From: Synechococcus sp. MEDNS5
Lineage (GTDB): Bacteria; Cyanobacteriota; Cyanobacteriia; PCC-6307; Cyanobiaceae
Reading direction: 5' to 3'
Length of the DNA: 64,000 bases
NCBI RefSeq assembly: GCF_014279875.1
Contig: NZ_CP047952.1
Coordinates: forward strand, 1,178,001-1,242,000
Shown here: positions 45,579 to 56,101 of the stretch, one piece after another
Numbering within the stretch: position 1 is the first letter of the stretch
Layout: every line of letters begins with the position of its first letter
The notes under the pieces: generated by a model
The model's input: the letters and a program-made list of their open reading frames with translations, nothing else
Databases searched by the model: none
Told to the model about the DNA's origin: nothing
Translations under genes and position numbers: made by a program

Positions 45579-46312
45579 TACGGGCAATCTGGTTCGTCGA
45601 AAAGCAGCTTTTCGATGTAGCGGTCGGCCCAGTCCGTCCCGAAGGCTTTCTCCAGAACCCGACGGGTTTTGTCGTTGCGTTTCTGTTGCTGGCAATACGA
45701 CACCTGCCCGTGGTATCTGGCGATCGTAAACGGATCGCTGGAAGCCGTTGGTTGTGCACGCTCCACGGCACGACTCAAGATGCCCAGATAGGTTTCAACA
45801 AGCCCCACAAACCAATCCTCCTCCTCGCGATTGGCAGGACGGATAAAGCGCACGAAGGGCGAAAAAATCGTGGCCCAGGCTGGGAGGTCACGCACCTGTT
45901 CGAAGGCGGGACTATTGATGTTGCTGAGAGCTTCGTTGATGGCAGCGGGCAAATGTTCACCCACTGGCGAAAGATCAACGATCGCCGCGGAAATCCCAGC
46001 TGGACTGGCAACGATGTCGGCTCCGAACACGGGGAGATCGAAGCGTGGGTCGGGAAAGAACACGCAGTGGAGGATTTGCAGGCCCACCCCCAGTCGGGCC
46101 GTTTCAAGATGCAGCTTGCGAAGACCGCGACAGCGGTGCACCTCGTTGCGTATGAACAACGCCTCCCCATCAAGACTGCCGATGATCTCCTCTAGATCCG
46201 CAGGAACTGCAAGATCCTGCAGATCGGGAAGCCCCTCGCGACACTGACGGATGCGAGCGGCTAGGGACATCACCAACGGATGAAGCTCCGGGCCGCTCGA
46301 GGACTCAGGCAT
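45578..46312 (-). CDS. pcyA: Phycocyanobilin:ferredoxin oxidoreductase
   Basis: 244 residues, family length. Catalytic residues are present: His68 and Glu70 in RKLHLETA, His82 in [10 protein letters not shown] and Asp99 in FGADIV, equivalent to His74, Glu76, His88 and Asp105 of Synechocystis PcyA. The C-terminal [13 protein letters not shown] block is also typical. It reduces biliverdin to phycocyanobilin with four electrons from ferredoxin, making the pigment bound by ApcD and ApcF. Start ATG at 46312, 24 bases from the divergent M16 gene. Its stop overlaps devB (TAATG), so it leads a pcyA-devBCA operon. Confidence 0.94.
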
Positions 46313-46336
46313 CAATCCGATCCGTCATTGCACAGA

Positions 46337-47644
46337 ATGGGACTTTGCCACGCGACCCTGACAGCGATCTCATCCGGTCCTGCACTGGAATACCTCACTC
46401 TTGCGAACAAAAGCACCCTGGTGTCGGCAGAACTGCCGGGTGCGGGTCTTACCTGCCTTGATTTCTGGTGTCGGGGGGGAAGCTTCTGGGAACGCAAGGG
46501 AGAAGAGGGCATGGCTCATTTTCTCGAACACATGGTGTTCAAGGGGAGTGAGCAGTTGCAACCAGGAGACTTCGATCGCCAAATCGAAGCCCTCGGCGGC
46601 AGCAGCAATGCCGCCACCGGTTTCGATGACGTGCACTTCCATGTTCTTGTTCCACCCAAGGAGACAGCCGCAGCGTTGGACCTGCTGCTTGATCTGGTTT
46701 TGAACCCCTCCCTCGATCAGGGTTCTTTCACCATGGAACGTGAGGTGGTGCTGGAGGAAATCTCCCAATTCCGCGACCAACCCGATGATCTTGTGTTCCA
46801 AAGCGTGCTGGAACTCTGCTTGCCCAAACACCCCTATGGCCGCCCAGTCCTAGGGCTCGACTCCAGCCTGAAAGCGATGGACCCCTCGGGAATGCGTCGC
46901 TACCACCAACGCCGTTACCAGGGGCCGAACTGCTGCCTTGCCGTTGCTGGAGCCATTCCCAATGACCTCATCAACCAAGTGAGAGGAAGTGCGCTCACGG
47001 CATTGAGCAATGAGGCTGATGCCGCAGCTCCGAACCCTTATGCCCAAGGCAGCCGCTCAGCGGAGCAGCTGCCTTTTCAAAGCGGAAGGGAATGCCAGAG
47101 CTTTGCGAGACTTGAGTCAGCACGCCTCCTGATGGTCTGGCCAACCGCTGCGGCTTCTGACCCTATTGGGGTGGCGGGGGCGGACCTGGCGACCACGATC
47201 TTGTCCGAAGGGCGTCGGAGCCGGCTGGTGCAACGTCTCCGCGAAGATCTGCAGATCGTCGAGTCCATCGACATGGACGTGACGACACTCGAGCAGGGAA
47301 GTCTGGTGATGCTTGAGGCCTGCTGCCCCGAAGACCAACTGCAACGGGTTGAACAGGAAATCAGAGAGGAACTTCAGCGCAGCGCCGAGAAACCCGTGCT
47401 CGAGGAGGAACGAAAGCGGGCTTTCCAAATGGTGGGCAATGGATACCGATTCAGCCTTGAAGCCCCGGGCTCGGTGGCGGGCTGCGCGGGCTCCCAGGCC
47501 GTCTGGGGACGACAGCGTCAGCTGCTCGAACCTCTCAAGGATCTCGAACAGTGGAGCGCGACAGCCCTGCAGGAGTGTGTGATGCAGCGGCTCCAGCCAG
47601 ACCAGGCATGCACTTTGATCGCTCGCCCTTCGGAATCAGCATGA
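46337..47644 (+). CDS. M16 zinc metallopeptidase, catalytic subunit type
   Basis: 435 residues from MGLCHATLTAIS. The inverted zinc motif HFLEHMVFKG (H-x-x-E-H) and the downstream glutamate in the EREVVLEEISQ segment show a working site. M16 peptidases cut peptides inside a two-part clamshell, here probably shared with the next gene. The open frame begins at 46280, but the ATG at 46337 lies just past the divergent pcyA start and gives the family start. No signal peptide, so cytoplasmic. Overlaps the next gene. Confidence 0.9.
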   Translation: MGLCHATLTAISSGPALEYLTLANKSTLVSAELPGAGLTCLDFWCRGGSFWERKGEEGMAHFLEHMVFKGSEQLQPGDFDRQIEALGGSSNAATGFDDVHFHVLVPPKETAAALDLLLDLVLNPSLDQGSFTMEREVVLEEISQFRDQPDDLVFQSVLELCLPKHPYGRPVLGLDSSLKAMDPSGMRRYHQRRYQGPNCCLAVAGAIPNDLINQVRGSALTALSNEADAAAPNPYAQGSRSAEQLPFQSGRECQSFARLESARLLMVWPTAAASDPIGVAGADLATTILSEGRRSRLVQRLREDLQIVESIDMDVTTLEQGSLVMLEACCPEDQLQRVEQEIREELQRSAEKPVLEEERKRAFQMVGNGYRFSLEAPGSVAGCAGSQAVWGRQRQLLEPLKDLEQWSATALQECVMQRLQPDQACTLIARPSESA

Positions 47645-48897
47645 ACGGCACCACTGGGGTGGTCATCGACCCGGTCGCAACCACCGGAGTCCTTTCGGCA
47701 AAGCTCTGGATCCGTCGCGGCAGCGGTGAAGATCCCGTTGGCCAGCGCGGTGGACATCAACTTCTCGGATCCGTTCTCAGCCGTGGCTGTGGACCGCTGG
47801 ACCATGTCCAGCTGGCGGATTTAGTTGAAGGCTGCGGGGCAGGGCTTCGTTGCGATACCCACGAAGATGGAATCCTGATCAGCCTCAAATGCACGCAAAA
47901 CGATGCCGACAGGCTGCTGCCGATCCTTGGGTGGATGCTGCAGCGTCCCCATCTGAACCCGGCTCAAATTGCGTTGGAAAAGGAGCTCAGCCTGCAGGCC
48001 CTCCAACGACAGCAGGAGGATCCGTTTCAGCGAGCCTTTGATGGCTGGCGACAGCTCGCCTACGGCAAAGGTCCCTATGGACACGACCCTCTTGGCGTCG
48101 CTGTCGATTTGGAGGCCCTTGATCAAAACCACCTGGTAGCCCTTGCAGCCGCAATCAACGATGGCGGATCCGTTCTGGCCCTCTCCGGAACGATTCCTGA
48201 AGGACTCCAGGACATCCTGCAGGGCTGGGGGGATGGAGCACTCCAAGGACGCTCGCAGGGGGAATCAGCCTTGGACAACGGTTCAGAGTTAACGAGCCAG
48301 TCGTTAACTCTGAACCGCGTTGAGACCGAACAGGTTGTGCTGATGCTCGGACAGGCCACGCTGCCCCACGGCCATCCGGATGATCTGGCCTTGAGGGTGC
48401 TCCAGGCCCATTTGGGATCGGGGATGTCGAGCCTTCTGTTCAGACGTTTACGCGAAGACCATGGTGTCGCTTATGACGTGGGACTTCACCATCCAGCAAG
48501 GCAGCGTTCCGCTCCCTTCGTGATGCACGCATCCACCGGGGTGGAGCGGGCGCGGCTAAGCCTCGAACTGTTGATGCGGAGTTGGGACGAGCTGTTGGAC
48601 TCCGTGATTGCACAAACTGATCTCGATTTGGCGATGGCCAAGTTCCGGGGTCAGCTGGCCCACGCGTCCCAGACCACAGGCCAGCGGGCTGAGCGTCGCG
48701 CCCAGCTCCGAGCGCTTGGGCTTCCGGACGATCACGATCGTCGTTGTGTCGATCAACTCAACAGCCTCAGTGGTGTTGCACTCAGAGCAGTGGCCTTGCA
48801 GCACTTGAAGAAGCCGATCCTCAGTCTGTGTGGACCCGCTTCCTCCCTGCGCATGCTCGAATCCGTTTGGAGGCACGGACCGTTTCATTCAGCTTGA
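47608..48897 (+). CDS. M16-family partner lacking the zinc motif
   Basis: 429 residues. The fold matches the preceding gene: TGVLSAKLWIRRGSGEDP, then GQRGGHQLLGSVLSRGCG where an active enzyme would have H-x-x-E-H; here the residues after His are Gln-Leu-Leu-Gly, so zinc binding is lost. Such inactive subunits pair with catalytic ones (as in mitochondrial processing peptidase). Start is ATG 47608 or the ATG 47641 that overlaps the upstream stop as ATGA; the former keeps the first beta strand. A 17-bp inverted repeat lies at 48279-48317 inside the gene. Convergent with sipA. Confidence 0.87.
   Translation: MHFDRSPFGISMNGTTGVVIDPVATTGVLSAKLWIRRGSGEDPVGQRGGHQLLGSVLSRGCGPLDHVQLADLVEGCGAGLRCDTHEDGILISLKCTQNDADRLLPILGWMLQRPHLNPAQIALEKELSLQALQRQQEDPFQRAFDGWRQLAYGKGPYGHDPLGVAVDLEALDQNHLVALAAAINDGGSVLALSGTIPEGLQDILQGWGDGALQGRSQGESALDNGSELTSQSLTLNRVETEQVVLMLGQATLPHGHPDDLALRVLQAHLGSGMSSLLFRRLREDHGVAYDVGLHHPARQRSAPFVMHASTGVERARLSLELLMRSWDELLDSVIAQTDLDLAMAKFRGQLAHASQTTGQRAERRAQLRALGLPDDHDRRCVDQLNSLSGVALRAVALQHLKKPILSLCGPASSLRMLESVWRHGPFHSA
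48279..48317. repeat. Perfect 17-bp inverted repeat inside a coding region
   Basis: CGGTTCAGAGTTAACGA at 48279-48295 is the exact reverse complement of TCGTTAACTCTGAACCG at 48301-48317, with the 5-base spacer GCCAG. It lies in the M16 partner gene and is translated as a Ser/Leu/Thr-rich stretch. A further CAAC/GTTG pair could extend the stem past a 2-base bulge. Confidence 0.95.
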
Positions 48898-49116
48898 AGC
48901 TTGATCTCCGATGGGAGCCAGTACGTCTGTCCCCAGGAGAAACGTTCCTCGGGAAAAACGCACCGCGACAGTCTCTCCGTGATGGAGAGCAGTCACCGTT
49001 CCCACTTCATCAAGATCCACCAGATCGGGTGGTCGCAGCATCGGCATCGGATCCGCTGACTTCAGAAAGGGCTGGGCGCGAAGCAGTCGTACTTGGTCAC
49101 CAATGGAAACGGCCAT
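48889..49116 (-). CDS. SipA-like regulatory protein (DUF3148)
   Basis: 75 residues from MAVSIGDQVRLLRAQP. The conserved core KSADPMPMLRPPDLV and EVGTVTALH with a final VRFSRGTFLL segment identifies the DUF3148/SipA family, small SH3-like barrels. In Synechococcus elongatus SipA binds and activates the NblS histidine kinase, which controls high-light and nutrient-stress genes; carried over here by family. The open frame continues upstream to 49281, but the ATG at 49116 is the family start. Divergent from bioY and overlapping the M16 gene end by nine bases. Confidence 0.85.
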   Translation of the reverse strand: MAVSIGDQVRLLRAQPFLKSADPMPMLRPPDLVDLDEVGTVTALHHGETVAVRFSRGTFLLGTDVLAPIGDQASS

Positions 49117-49172
49117 AGGAGCTGGGCAATGTGTTCCTCTTACAGCAGGATGGTGCCAGCTGACGACTGCCC

Positions 49173-49745
49173 GTGAGGGCTTTGGCCACATGGAGCGGCG
49201 CTGTCGCCGGTCTGTTCCTGATTCTGGTGGGCAGCCTGATCCAGGCGGCTCTGGTGGTTCCCCTGCCTGAGCTGCCTCCACCTGTGTTGCCTTTGCCCAG
49301 CACCTGGCAGGTGCCGGCGCTGCTTTTGTGTTCTCTGGTTGCAGGACCTCGCGCCGGTGTGATCGCCTCTGTTGCTTACTTAACCATCGGCCTTGTGGAT
49401 CTGCCTGTGTTTTATGGCGGTGGCGGCATTGCTTACGTGCTCACGCCTGGATTCGGATACCTGGCGGGATTCATCCCGGCCGCATGGTTGACCGGTCGAT
49501 TAGCCATGCAGAGCGGCATGAATGACATCCCCCGGCTCACGCTGGCTGCCATGGCCGGTTTGCTCATCATTCAGCTCTGCGGGCTGCTCAATCTCCTTTT
49601 GGGTGCAGGACTCGGTCGCTGGCAGCAACCCCTGGCTGAGCTGTTGTTTAGCTATAGCCTCGGCCCCTTGGTTGCGCAGCTGGCCCTTTGCTGCGCAGCA
49701 GGTTTATTGGCCCGTTGCATGCGCGGTCTGTTGTGGGTGGAATGA
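49173..49745 (+). CDS. bioY: Biotin transporter BioY
   Basis: 190 residues with about six membrane helices. VLPLPSTWQVPALLLCSLVAG and the glycine-rich AYLTIGLVDLPVFYGGGGIAY, LTPGFGYLAGFIPAAWLTG are the BioY hallmarks. It is the substrate-binding membrane component of an ECF-type biotin importer; it can work alone or with shared EcfAT. Start is GTG at 49173. First gene of bioY-lspA-PBP-GTPase. Confidence 0.92.
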   Translation: MRALATWSGAVAGLFLILVGSLIQAALVVPLPELPPPVLPLPSTWQVPALLLCSLVAGPRAGVIASVAYLTIGLVDLPVFYGGGGIAYVLTPGFGYLAGFIPAAWLTGRLAMQSGMNDIPRLTLAAMAGLLIIQLCGLLNLLLGAGLGRWQQPLAELLFSYSLGPLVAQLALCCAAGLLARCMRGLLWVE

Positions 49746-50248
49746 ACGCAACCGAAAGCGCCGTCAGAAGGAAACGCCGTTCGCTACGGCGAGAAACACT
49801 GCTCTTGATCAGCGTTGGGATGGTGATCCTTGATCAGTGGAGCAAGCACTGGGCTCGTTCCGCATTGATCCTCGGCAGGCCAGTGCCGTTCATCCCCGGC
49901 TTTCTGCAGCTTCGTCTCGTGCACAACACAGGTGCAGCCTTCAGTTTGTTCACAGACTCCACTCTGGTTCTCGGCGTTCTGAGCCTGCTAGTGACGCTTG
50001 GAGTCACGGCATGGATCTGGAGTCAGCCAAAGCGTTGTTTCTGGATGGGTCTTGCTTTGGCATTTCTGCTTGGAGGAACCCTCGGCAATGGCATCGATCG
50101 TTGGCGCCTCGGCCACGTCACCGATTTTCTTGAACTGGTGCCGATCCAGTTTCCGATTTTCAACTGGGCTGATGTCGTCATCAATTTCGCAGTTGTCTGC
50201 TTCGCCGTCGATGCCTTCCGTGAACGCCATGGCCAAGTTGACTCCTAA
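49742..50248 (+). CDS. lspA: Lipoprotein signal peptidase (signal peptidase II)
   Basis: 168 residues, four membrane helices. Active-site aspartates: the first in LGNGIDRWRLGHVTDFLEL and the second in FNWADVVINFAV. LVHNTGAAFSLF is also conserved. It cleaves the signal peptide of lipoproteins after lipid attachment. The ATG at 49742 overlaps the bioY stop (ATGA). A basic stretch precedes the first helix. Its 3' end overlaps the next gene by 20 bases. Confidence 0.95.
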   Translation: MNATESAVRRKRRSLRRETLLLISVGMVILDQWSKHWARSALILGRPVPFIPGFLQLRLVHNTGAAFSLFTDSTLVLGVLSLLVTLGVTAWIWSQPKRCFWMGLALAFLLGGTLGNGIDRWRLGHVTDFLELVPIQFPIFNWADVVINFAVVCFAVDAFRERHGQVDS

Positions 50249-52388
50249 GCAACAGGCTCCAGCGCGGCTGACGATCCATCAGCATGATCGCCCCGATCAA
50301 ACCCTTCACCTTCACGGGGAGGGATATCGCATCGGTCGCGATCAAGCGCTGGAGATCTGCATTGAGCATCCCGCCGTCAGCCGCCAGCACGCCGTACTTC
50401 AGAAGCGCAATCGGCAGTGGTATCTCCTGGATCAGGGTTCCACCAACGGCCTCTGGTGGCGAGGACGCAGGGTTAAGGAAATCGAATTAAACGACGGCGA
50501 CCAGATCAGCCTGGCTCCCGCCACGGAAGCAGGAGCCCCATCCCTGCAGTTTGAAAATCCAGCTGACCGGGGTGGACAACGCATCCGGCGCTGGCTTGGG
50601 ATCGGACTCCTGCTGGCTCTGGGGGGATCGGGTGCTCTGCTTCTTCTTGCTGGTCTGGATGTGCCCGTCCGTGGCCGACTGGCCACTGTGCGTGGACCTG
50701 TGGCCATCTACGACGGCAACAACAAACCTCTCGATTCCGTTGATTCCAGTCGTCATCGGGAATTGGCCACTCTCGCCGACTTTTCACCATCGCTGATCAA
50801 CGCCCTACTCAGCAGTGAGGACAACCGTTTCTGGTGGCACCCAGGGGTTGATCCCATTGGAACCGTGCGTGCGTTCGCCACCAACCTGACCGGTGGACGG
50901 GTTCTGGAAGGGGGCAGCAGCCTCACCCAGCAACTGGCCAGAAGCCTGTACCCGGATCTGGTTGGCGAGGGGGACACCCTGGGCAGGAAATGGAGAGAAC
51001 TGCTGGTCGCCCTGCAGCTGGAGAGTCGCTTCAGCAAGGGTGAACTGCTCTTGAGCTATCTCAACAGGGTGTACCTCGGGGTGGGGTGGGGTTTCGACGA
51101 TGCCTCCCGAACCTTTTTCAATAAATCAGCTGGGTCGCTCACGGTGGAGGAAGCAGCGCTGTTGGTGGGCCTCTTGCCCTCGCCCAATGGCCACGACCCT
51201 TGCCAGTTTCCGCAGAGAGCTCTCGAAGCCCGAAACAGAGTTCTGAACAAGATGGCGGATGCCGGGCGGCTCTCCCTGGATGCAGCGCGCGCGGCCCGTC
51301 GCCAGCCCATTCAGCTGGCCAAAAATGCTTGCAGCAAAGAGGCCACACGTCGCTCCGCTCCCTTTTACACCGATCAGGTCAGGAGGGACTTAACGGCTCT
51401 GGTGGGCCCCGAGGTGGCAGCTGAGGGCAACTTCCTAATCGAAACCCACCTCGATCCGGTGCTTCAGAGCGTGATTGAACGACGCCTGCGCAACCTGATC
51501 AGGAATGCCGGCGGGTTGGGTGTCAGTGAGGGCGCTGCCGTCGTGATCGACAGTCGCAGTGGTGGTGTGCTCGCAATTGCCGGTGGACGCGACTACCGCT
51601 TCAGCCAGTTCAACCGTGCCTCCATGGCCATGCGACAGCCAGGAAGCACTTTCAAGCTCATGACTTACCTGGCAGCGCTGGACCGGGGAGTGAAGCCCAC
51701 TGAGAGCATCGACTGCAGCGCCATGGAATGGGGTGGACAGCGGTTTGAAAGTCCCTGCAATGGTCGTCTCACGCTCACCAGCGCTTTCGCATCAAGCAGC
51801 AACACGGCAGCCCTGCGCCTCGCCAAGCGTGTGGGACTGGAACAGGTGGTTCGTCAGGCCCGGGCCTTGGGCATCACCACCCCTCTCGATCCCGTCCCTG
51901 GATTGGCGCTGGGACAGAGCGAAGTGCGCTTGATCGAGCTCACCAGTGCCTACGCCGCCGTGGTCAACAAAGGCGAATGGAAACCACCCACCACGATCCG
52001 CCGCTTGATGGATGCTGAAACCTGCCGGCAGGACAATCTGCGTGGATGCGGCAGTCTCACTGGGGCGGAAGACAACAGCCTGAATGCCGGACGTCAGGCC
52101 ATCCGCCCGGACGTTGCCAAACAAATGCAGGCGATGCTGCGAGCGGTGGTGAGAAATGGAACAGGCACCGGAGCGTCCCTGGGAGGAGAAGAAGGAGGAA
52201 AGACCGGAACCACCAATGACGGACGCGATCTTCTGTTCATCGGCTACGAACCAAGCCGTCACTGGGTGCTGGGAATCTGGCTTGGCAACGACGACAACAG
52301 TCCCTCGGCCAGCTCGAGTGCGCTGGCAGCATCTCTGTGGGGGGAAATCATGCGTTCTGCAGGACGCGGCGGGCTGAATACGCGATAA
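50229..52388 (+). CDS. FHA-domain class A penicillin-binding protein (PBP1A-like)
   Basis: 719 residues from MAKLTPKQQAP. An N-terminal FHA domain (about 15-105: GYRIGRDQALEICIEHPAVSRQHAVLQ, DQGSTNGLW) is followed by a membrane anchor (LGIGLLLALGGSGALLLLAG), a glycosyltransferase family 51 domain with catalytic Glu in SSEDNRFWWHPG and QQLARSLYP, and a transpeptidase: SxxK in PGSTFKLMTY, SxN in ASSSNTAAL, KTG in GEEGGKTGTTND. It builds and cross-links peptidoglycan. FHA domains bind phosphothreonine, so its activity or placement may be tied to Ser/Thr kinases. Overlaps lspA. Confidence 0.94.
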   Translation: MAKLTPKQQAPARLTIHQHDRPDQTLHLHGEGYRIGRDQALEICIEHPAVSRQHAVLQKRNRQWYLLDQGSTNGLWWRGRRVKEIELNDGDQISLAPATEAGAPSLQFENPADRGGQRIRRWLGIGLLLALGGSGALLLLAGLDVPVRGRLATVRGPVAIYDGNNKPLDSVDSSRHRELATLADFSPSLINALLSSEDNRFWWHPGVDPIGTVRAFATNLTGGRVLEGGSSLTQQLARSLYPDLVGEGDTLGRKWRELLVALQLESRFSKGELLLSYLNRVYLGVGWGFDDASRTFFNKSAGSLTVEEAALLVGLLPSPNGHDPCQFPQRALEARNRVLNKMADAGRLSLDAARAARRQPIQLAKNACSKEATRRSAPFYTDQVRRDLTALVGPEVAAEGNFLIETHLDPVLQSVIERRLRNLIRNAGGLGVSEGAAVVIDSRSGGVLAIAGGRDYRFSQFNRASMAMRQPGSTFKLMTYLAALDRGVKPTESIDCSAMEWGGQRFESPCNGRLTLTSAFASSSNTAALRLAKRVGLEQVVRQARALGITTPLDPVPGLALGQSEVRLIELTSAYAAVVNKGEWKPPTTIRRLMDAETCRQDNLRGCGSLTGAEDNSLNAGRQAIRPDVAKQMQAMLRAVVRNGTGTGASLGGEEGGKTGTTNDGRDLLFIGYEPSRHWVLGIWLGNDDNSPSASSSALAASLWGEIMRSAGRGGLNTR

Positions 52389-55533: not shown

Positions 55534-55615
55534 TGTCACCTTTGGTGGCACATTGGATGGCAATCAGAGATTCACGGCTGTGCGGGCGGATCCGGTTCAG
55601 TTCACTCAACAGGGG

Positions 55616-56101
55616 ATGCACGCTTGGATGCAGCGGCTGCTCAACCGAGCTGAGCGCGTGGGTGCCACTGGAGAGATTCCTGTGGCGGCTGTACTTCTCG
55701 ATCAAGCAGGGCGGTGCATTGGCCACGGATCCAATCGCAGGGAAACCCACAGAGACCCCCTCGGACATGCGGAGTTGATGGCGCTGCGTCAGGGCGCCTT
55801 GCTCCTTGGCGATTGGCGCATGAACCACTGCACCCTGCTGGTGACCCTGGAGCCATGCCCGATGTGTGCGGGAGCACTCGTTCAGGCCAGGGTGGGACAG
55901 GTGATTTTCGCTGCCAGAGACCGCAAACGCGGTGGGCTAGGCAGCACGATCAATCTCGCTGATCATCACTCCGCGCACCACCACATGCGAGTGGTGGGCG
56001 GAGTGATGGAAGAGGAGGCCTCGTTACAACTGGCGAGCTGGTTCAGGCAGCGACGCAGGAGCCCTGGCGAAAGCGAGGAAGCTCCGACTCAAACAAATTG
56101 A
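55616..56101 (+). CDS. tadA: tRNA-specific adenosine deaminase
   Basis: 161 residues from MHAWMQRLLNRAERVG. The zinc site is GHAELMAL (His, catalytic Glu) and EPCPMCAGAL (two Cys). It converts A34 of tRNA-Arg(ACG) to inosine, an essential wobble change. The open frame reaches back to a TTG at 55553; the ATG at 55616 is the family-like start. Its last 59 bases overlap the aminotransferase gene on the other strand. A guanine deaminase of the same fold is the only alternative, but the length and motifs fit TadA. Confidence 0.92.
   Translation: MHAWMQRLLNRAERVGATGEIPVAAVLLDQAGRCIGHGSNRRETHRDPLGHAELMALRQGALLLGDWRMNHCTLLVTLEPCPMCAGALVQARVGQVIFAARDRKRGGLGSTINLADHHSAHHHMRVVGGVMEEEASLQLASWFRQRRRSPGESEEAPTQTN

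Follow-up and report, generated by a model that had tools for sequence, protein, structure and literature searches.

The perfect 17-bp inverted repeat that we analyzed in Synechococcus sp. MEDNS5 lies within the gene of an M16-family peptidase partner and, judging from sequence comparison, is probably the footprint of one recent short-range template switch, a mutation that corrects a quasipalindrome, on the branch of this genome. It shows two marks of such a mutation: the perfect repeat is specific to one lineage (1 of 30 aligned orthologs), and one arm has clustered substitutions that match the other arm, with four in 7 nt against none. The most fitting reading of the hairpin is that of a neutral footprint in an unconstrained linker, left by an already known class of mutation. 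The features concerned are given below in positions of the window, i.e., the whole stretch of 64,000 nucleotides that was analyzed. We call a base private when it differs in this genome from the bases of all four nearest relatives (L005 to L008).

46280..47644, + strand: upstream M16 peptidase with an HFLEH (HxxEH-type) motif, from Pfam and the translation.
47641..48897, + strand: M16-family peptidase partner, putative inactive subunit, 418 aa (Pfam PF05193, E 8.7e-16; PF00675, E 6.6e-05).
48235..48327, + strand: hypervariable inter-domain linker, 93 bases used in the hairpin comparison (approximate bounds, from the alignment of 30 orthologs).
48279..48295, + strand: left arm of the repeat, the putative recipient, with private bases at 48289, 48290, 48292, and 48295.
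48289..48295, + strand: minimal patch of 7 nt that would have been rewritten; it affects residues 217-219, which now read L-T-S.
48296..48300, + strand: loop of 5 bases.
48301..48317, + strand: right arm, the putative template, with private bases at 0 of 17 positions.

The start of the partner gene and the stop of the M16 gene upstream of it overlap, and the solved relatives of its product include 3hdi, 5hxk, 3gwb, and 3amj_B ("zinc peptidase inactive subunit"). Reading the translation by eye, we found the HxxEH motif to be missing; we take this motif to distinguish active-type from inactive M16 subunits. With M16 domains, no HxxEH motif, and an adjoining active-type M16 gene, the protein is, by its sequence, an M16 inactive partner, and the placement of the repeat in such a subunit by an earlier note on this DNA holds. 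That note had also spoken of a conserved enzyme gene. This is right for the gene as a whole but not for the site of the repeat, which is a hypervariable linker. Mean column conservation is 0.38 over the repeat versus 0.76 over the whole gene, and the linker is among the gene's least conserved parts, with 19 of the 406 windows of 13 residues scoring lower. In the alignment of 30 orthologs, the residues encoded by the repeat (213-226) stand directly before the conserved TEQVVLMLG motif. The AlphaFold2 model, whose alignment took in 22 of the 30 ortholog rows (22 sequences; mean pLDDT 75.1), gives residues 197-227 a pLDDT below 50 and predicts them to be unstructured. Changes in the linker would be expected to cost little.

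Recomputed as reverse complements, the arms (48279-48295 and 48301-48317) are 17 nt long and 100% complementary, with a spacing of 5 nt. The resulting hairpin sequence of 39 bases lies in the open frame of the ORF at 47641-48897, as first described, and encodes N213-G-S-E-L-T-S-Q-S-L-T-L-N-R226. The very stable RNA hairpin proposed in the note was recovered in silico: the predicted fold of 48259-48337 has an energy of -36.5 kcal/mol, while shuffled sequences average -19.3 (sd 3.23; z -5.33), and 0 of 200 shuffles fold as well. This is the longest perfect inverted repeat with a loop of 3 to 20 in the examined 400 kb of this genome (G000), the runner-up having arms of 15 bp. Eight second-order Markov sequences of 400 kb each contained no perfect repeat of at least 14 bp, and with uniform bases one expects 0.0026 repeats with arms of at least 17 bp per 2.436-Mb genome. 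Within one genome, a 17-bp repeat is thus unlikely to arise by chance. If hundreds of genomes were scanned, such a repeat could conceivably turn up by chance, perhaps in about one of several hundred. The claim that neither chance nor codon constraint would be expected to produce the repeat is borne out in that neither readily explains it; codon constraint was rejected because the sequence is not common to the relatives.

The ortholog search matched 112 of 119 genomes, and the best 30 loci were aligned (own genome and locus, L004, included in both counts). The alignment with relatives advised in the note showed the hairpin to be lineage specific. It is absent in 29 of the 29 other aligned orthologs, among which the longest perfect arm in the linker is 5 to 8 bp, and a conserved hairpin at the relatives' linker is rejected (0 of 29). 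According to the note, coding constraint would be suggested if every relative had this sequence codon for codon; the relatives differ. The closest of them, L005 (genome G025), has 92% protein identity and is the sister of L004 with support of 100/99, and the end branch of L004 in the tree is short (0.03). Synechococcus WH7803, another relative, is 83% identical. The genome search for further copies of the 17-mer that the note had suggested, allowing up to 3 mismatches, returned no other copy bar one place with 3 mismatches; the reversed control pattern has 2 places within that limit.

These comparisons bear on the proposal that the repeat is an inserted palindromic mobile element or recognition site, which we consider scarcely credible. 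The perfection of the arms would fit it. Against it, the repeat is present as a single copy in the genome, its 29-base core was found with up to 3 mismatches in this genome only among the 31 of the genus (0 of the 30 others), and the viral contigs scanned do not contain the exact repeat. Moreover, the linker has the same length in L004 and L005, so that nothing has been inserted relative to the closest relative. The idea of an inserted palindromic element, which the note had raised, is therefore not upheld, and a dispersed palindromic element of the MITE or REP type was rejected on the single copy and the lack of an insertion relative to L005. A sequencing or assembly artefact is also highly improbable. 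The repeat is known from the assembly of one isolate, but this is a single-contig genome with a completeness of 99.98, the reading frame is intact, and the differences from L005 lie in both arms.

The distribution of changes suggests which arm is the older one. Private bases occupy 26 of the 1254 sites of the gene; four of them are in the left arm, and none is in the right arm or in the loop. The 7-nt window with these four is the sole one of the gene to hold as many, and all four are the complement of the right arm, completing the pairing. The left arm of this genome matches the reverse complement of the relatives' right arms better than it matches their own left arms: 14/17 versus 9/17 for L006, 14/17 versus 8/17 for L007, 12/17 versus 8/17 for L008, and 11/17 versus 10/17 for L005. 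Since the right arm has no private bases and the left arm is better predicted from it, the right arm appears old, and the inner part of the left arm appears to be a copy of it. Identity to L005 is 10/17 in the left arm and 11/17 in the right arm. Because both arms differ, one event from an L005-like state would be insufficient, which implies right-arm changes either along the branch to L005 or before it. In the relatives, the two segments are complementary at 8, 7, 7, and 4 of 17 positions, a modest level to be read with the weak alignment of the left arm in the hypervariable linker. L006 has CAGAG/CTCTG in pairing register, which by its sequence is a possible priming stem, and the outer 10 bp of the hairpin may have been partly present before the event.

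The same data could be explained by chance, i.e., by point substitutions of the usual kind in a linker that evolves fast, which would have turned two partly complementary segments into a perfect repeat. We regard this as possible but rather unlikely. The poor conservation of the linker is in its favor, and stems as long as the outer one (10 bp) are common, 26 repeats with arms of at least 10 bp having been counted over the 400 kb. Four complementary matches are a coincidence of 1 in 81 if the new bases are random, a value that has to be read knowing that the repeat was chosen as perfect. With a local rate of ten times the mean of the gene, a cluster of four changes in 7 nt has a probability of 0.038, and the hairpin was selected from a large scan. 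On the other hand, chance has to contend with a whole-genome expectation of about 0.003 and with private changes confined to one arm, and in the 369 kb aligned to G025 no other repeat of this genome with at least four arm differences exceeds 12 bp.

How could a template switch have produced the repeat? The linker would already have contained two segments that were partly complementary. While the DNA was being replicated, the nascent strand would have switched to the right arm, possibly by fold-back or by invasion of the sister duplex, and at least 7 bases of the right arm would have been copied as their reverse complement into the left arm before the return to the original template. We infer that the four private bases stem from this one event. 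Length and frame would have been kept, two or three residues of the disordered linker would have become L-T-S, and the mutation would have been tolerated because the linker is unconstrained.

The hairpin could alternatively have been selected as an RNA or DNA structure between the two domains, with a role special to this lineage in ribosome pausing or in the stabilization or processing of the mRNA. The predicted fold is very stable, and it would stand at a domain boundary, where a pause might help co-translational folding. Yet all 29 aligned relatives lack the hairpin, which speaks against a selected role common to the genus. The linker of a few of them folds with mild stability (z as low as -2.59), but no perfect arm there is longer than 8 bp. 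A search of 47500-49200 with the covariance models of Rfam 15 gave 0 matches up to E = 1, which also led us to reject a described RNA family. We thus consider selection for the hairpin very unlikely. A function of the hairpin is unlikely in general, and a role in pausing or processing is suggested by the predicted fold alone. Termination of transcription, put forward in the note, did not find support, since neither strand has a T run after the stem and the repeat is not one of the six terminator-like sites listed for 46000-50500. An intrinsic terminator was rejected: the stem is followed by CGTTGAGACC on the + strand and by TTGTCCAAGG on the - strand, with no T run.

This genome and G025 were also scanned for further repeats and template switches. 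Close inverted repeats in ORFs with arms of at least 9 bp number 69 in 400 kb of this genome, versus 25 mirror and 20 complement repeats, and 50 in 400 kb of G025, versus 20 and 21. This excess over the controls, 2.4- to 3.5-fold in both genomes (stretches L066-L105), could result from mutational bias or from mRNA structure. A strict scan of the two genomes, in which the template was required to be present in the other genome, gave no excess for changes in this genome (20 versus 26 mirror and 33 complement) and a modest one for changes in G025 (44 versus 31 and 25). The copies it found were of at most 8 bases (G000) and 10 bases (G025), and the six best cases listed do not include the M16 site. 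A looser scan ranks the M16 repeat first. With arms of at least 11 bp and at least four differences in an arm, it counted 4 reverse-complement cases in this genome and 3 in G025, which is too few to test, versus 1 and 0 for mirror and 0 and 1 for complement controls; this count excludes repeats perfected by fewer changes, such as those of 15 and 13 bp. It is quite doubtful that this lineage perfects imperfect coding repeats by template switching unusually often, with the M16 hairpin as the clearest trace and the repeat at 55964-56008 (see below) as a possible second. If this were true, frequent switching would rewrite hypervariable protein linkers in multi-residue jumps.

Other inverted repeats were noticed along the way. 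At 55964-56008, in the ORF at 55553-56101, there is a near-perfect one with arms of 18 nt, 94% complementarity, and a loop of 9 bases. The ORF appears tadA-like from its translation, and in the G025 counterpart of the repeat, which differs in both arms, complementarity is lower. Outside the window, repeats at positions 1149352 (13-bp arms) and 1398792 (15-bp arms) of the contig are perfect in this genome and imperfect in G025, a comparison that is biased by the choice of perfect repeats in this genome.

If the repeat was left by a template switch, it would be a clear marine picocyanobacterial example of a perfect coding hairpin that arose without selection for the hairpin, and it would illustrate that neighboring residues can change at once by such a mutation. 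It also suggests that a striking palindrome within a gene should be compared with its relatives before it is called an element or a regulator. In the open literature searched, mostly titles and the beginnings of abstracts, no title reported such mutations in cyanobacteria.

The process itself has been described elsewhere. Template switching between the arms of imperfect repeats is established in Escherichia coli with thyA and lacZ reporters (PMC7202029). As in those quasipalindrome mutations, a templated change of one arm would have made an imperfect repeat more perfect; unlike in that mutation assay, our case comes from a comparison of species, and the earlier imperfect repeat is weakly visible. 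In coding genes of Saccharomyces cerevisiae, template switches were inferred from perfect repeats of 7 to 16 bp, the single 16-bp case not being statistically evaluated in that study (PMC8604942). This homogenization of arms resembles the M16 case in combining a perfect coding repeat with clustered substitutions on a branch and amino acid changes, but the yeast events are at the level of strains, whereas ours is cyanobacterial, has an arm of 17 bp, and is at the level of species. The hairpins of RNA genes attributed to template switching (PMC8794818) similarly indicate that a perfect stem can arise in one event, while the M16 hairpin is in the linker of a protein. Finally, the mitochondrial palindromes of Nematomorpha (PMC6649704) are also perfect inverted repeats within coding sequences, but they are numerous, reach 284 bp, and occupy conserved protein regions, whereas the M16 repeat is single, short, and located in an unconserved linker.
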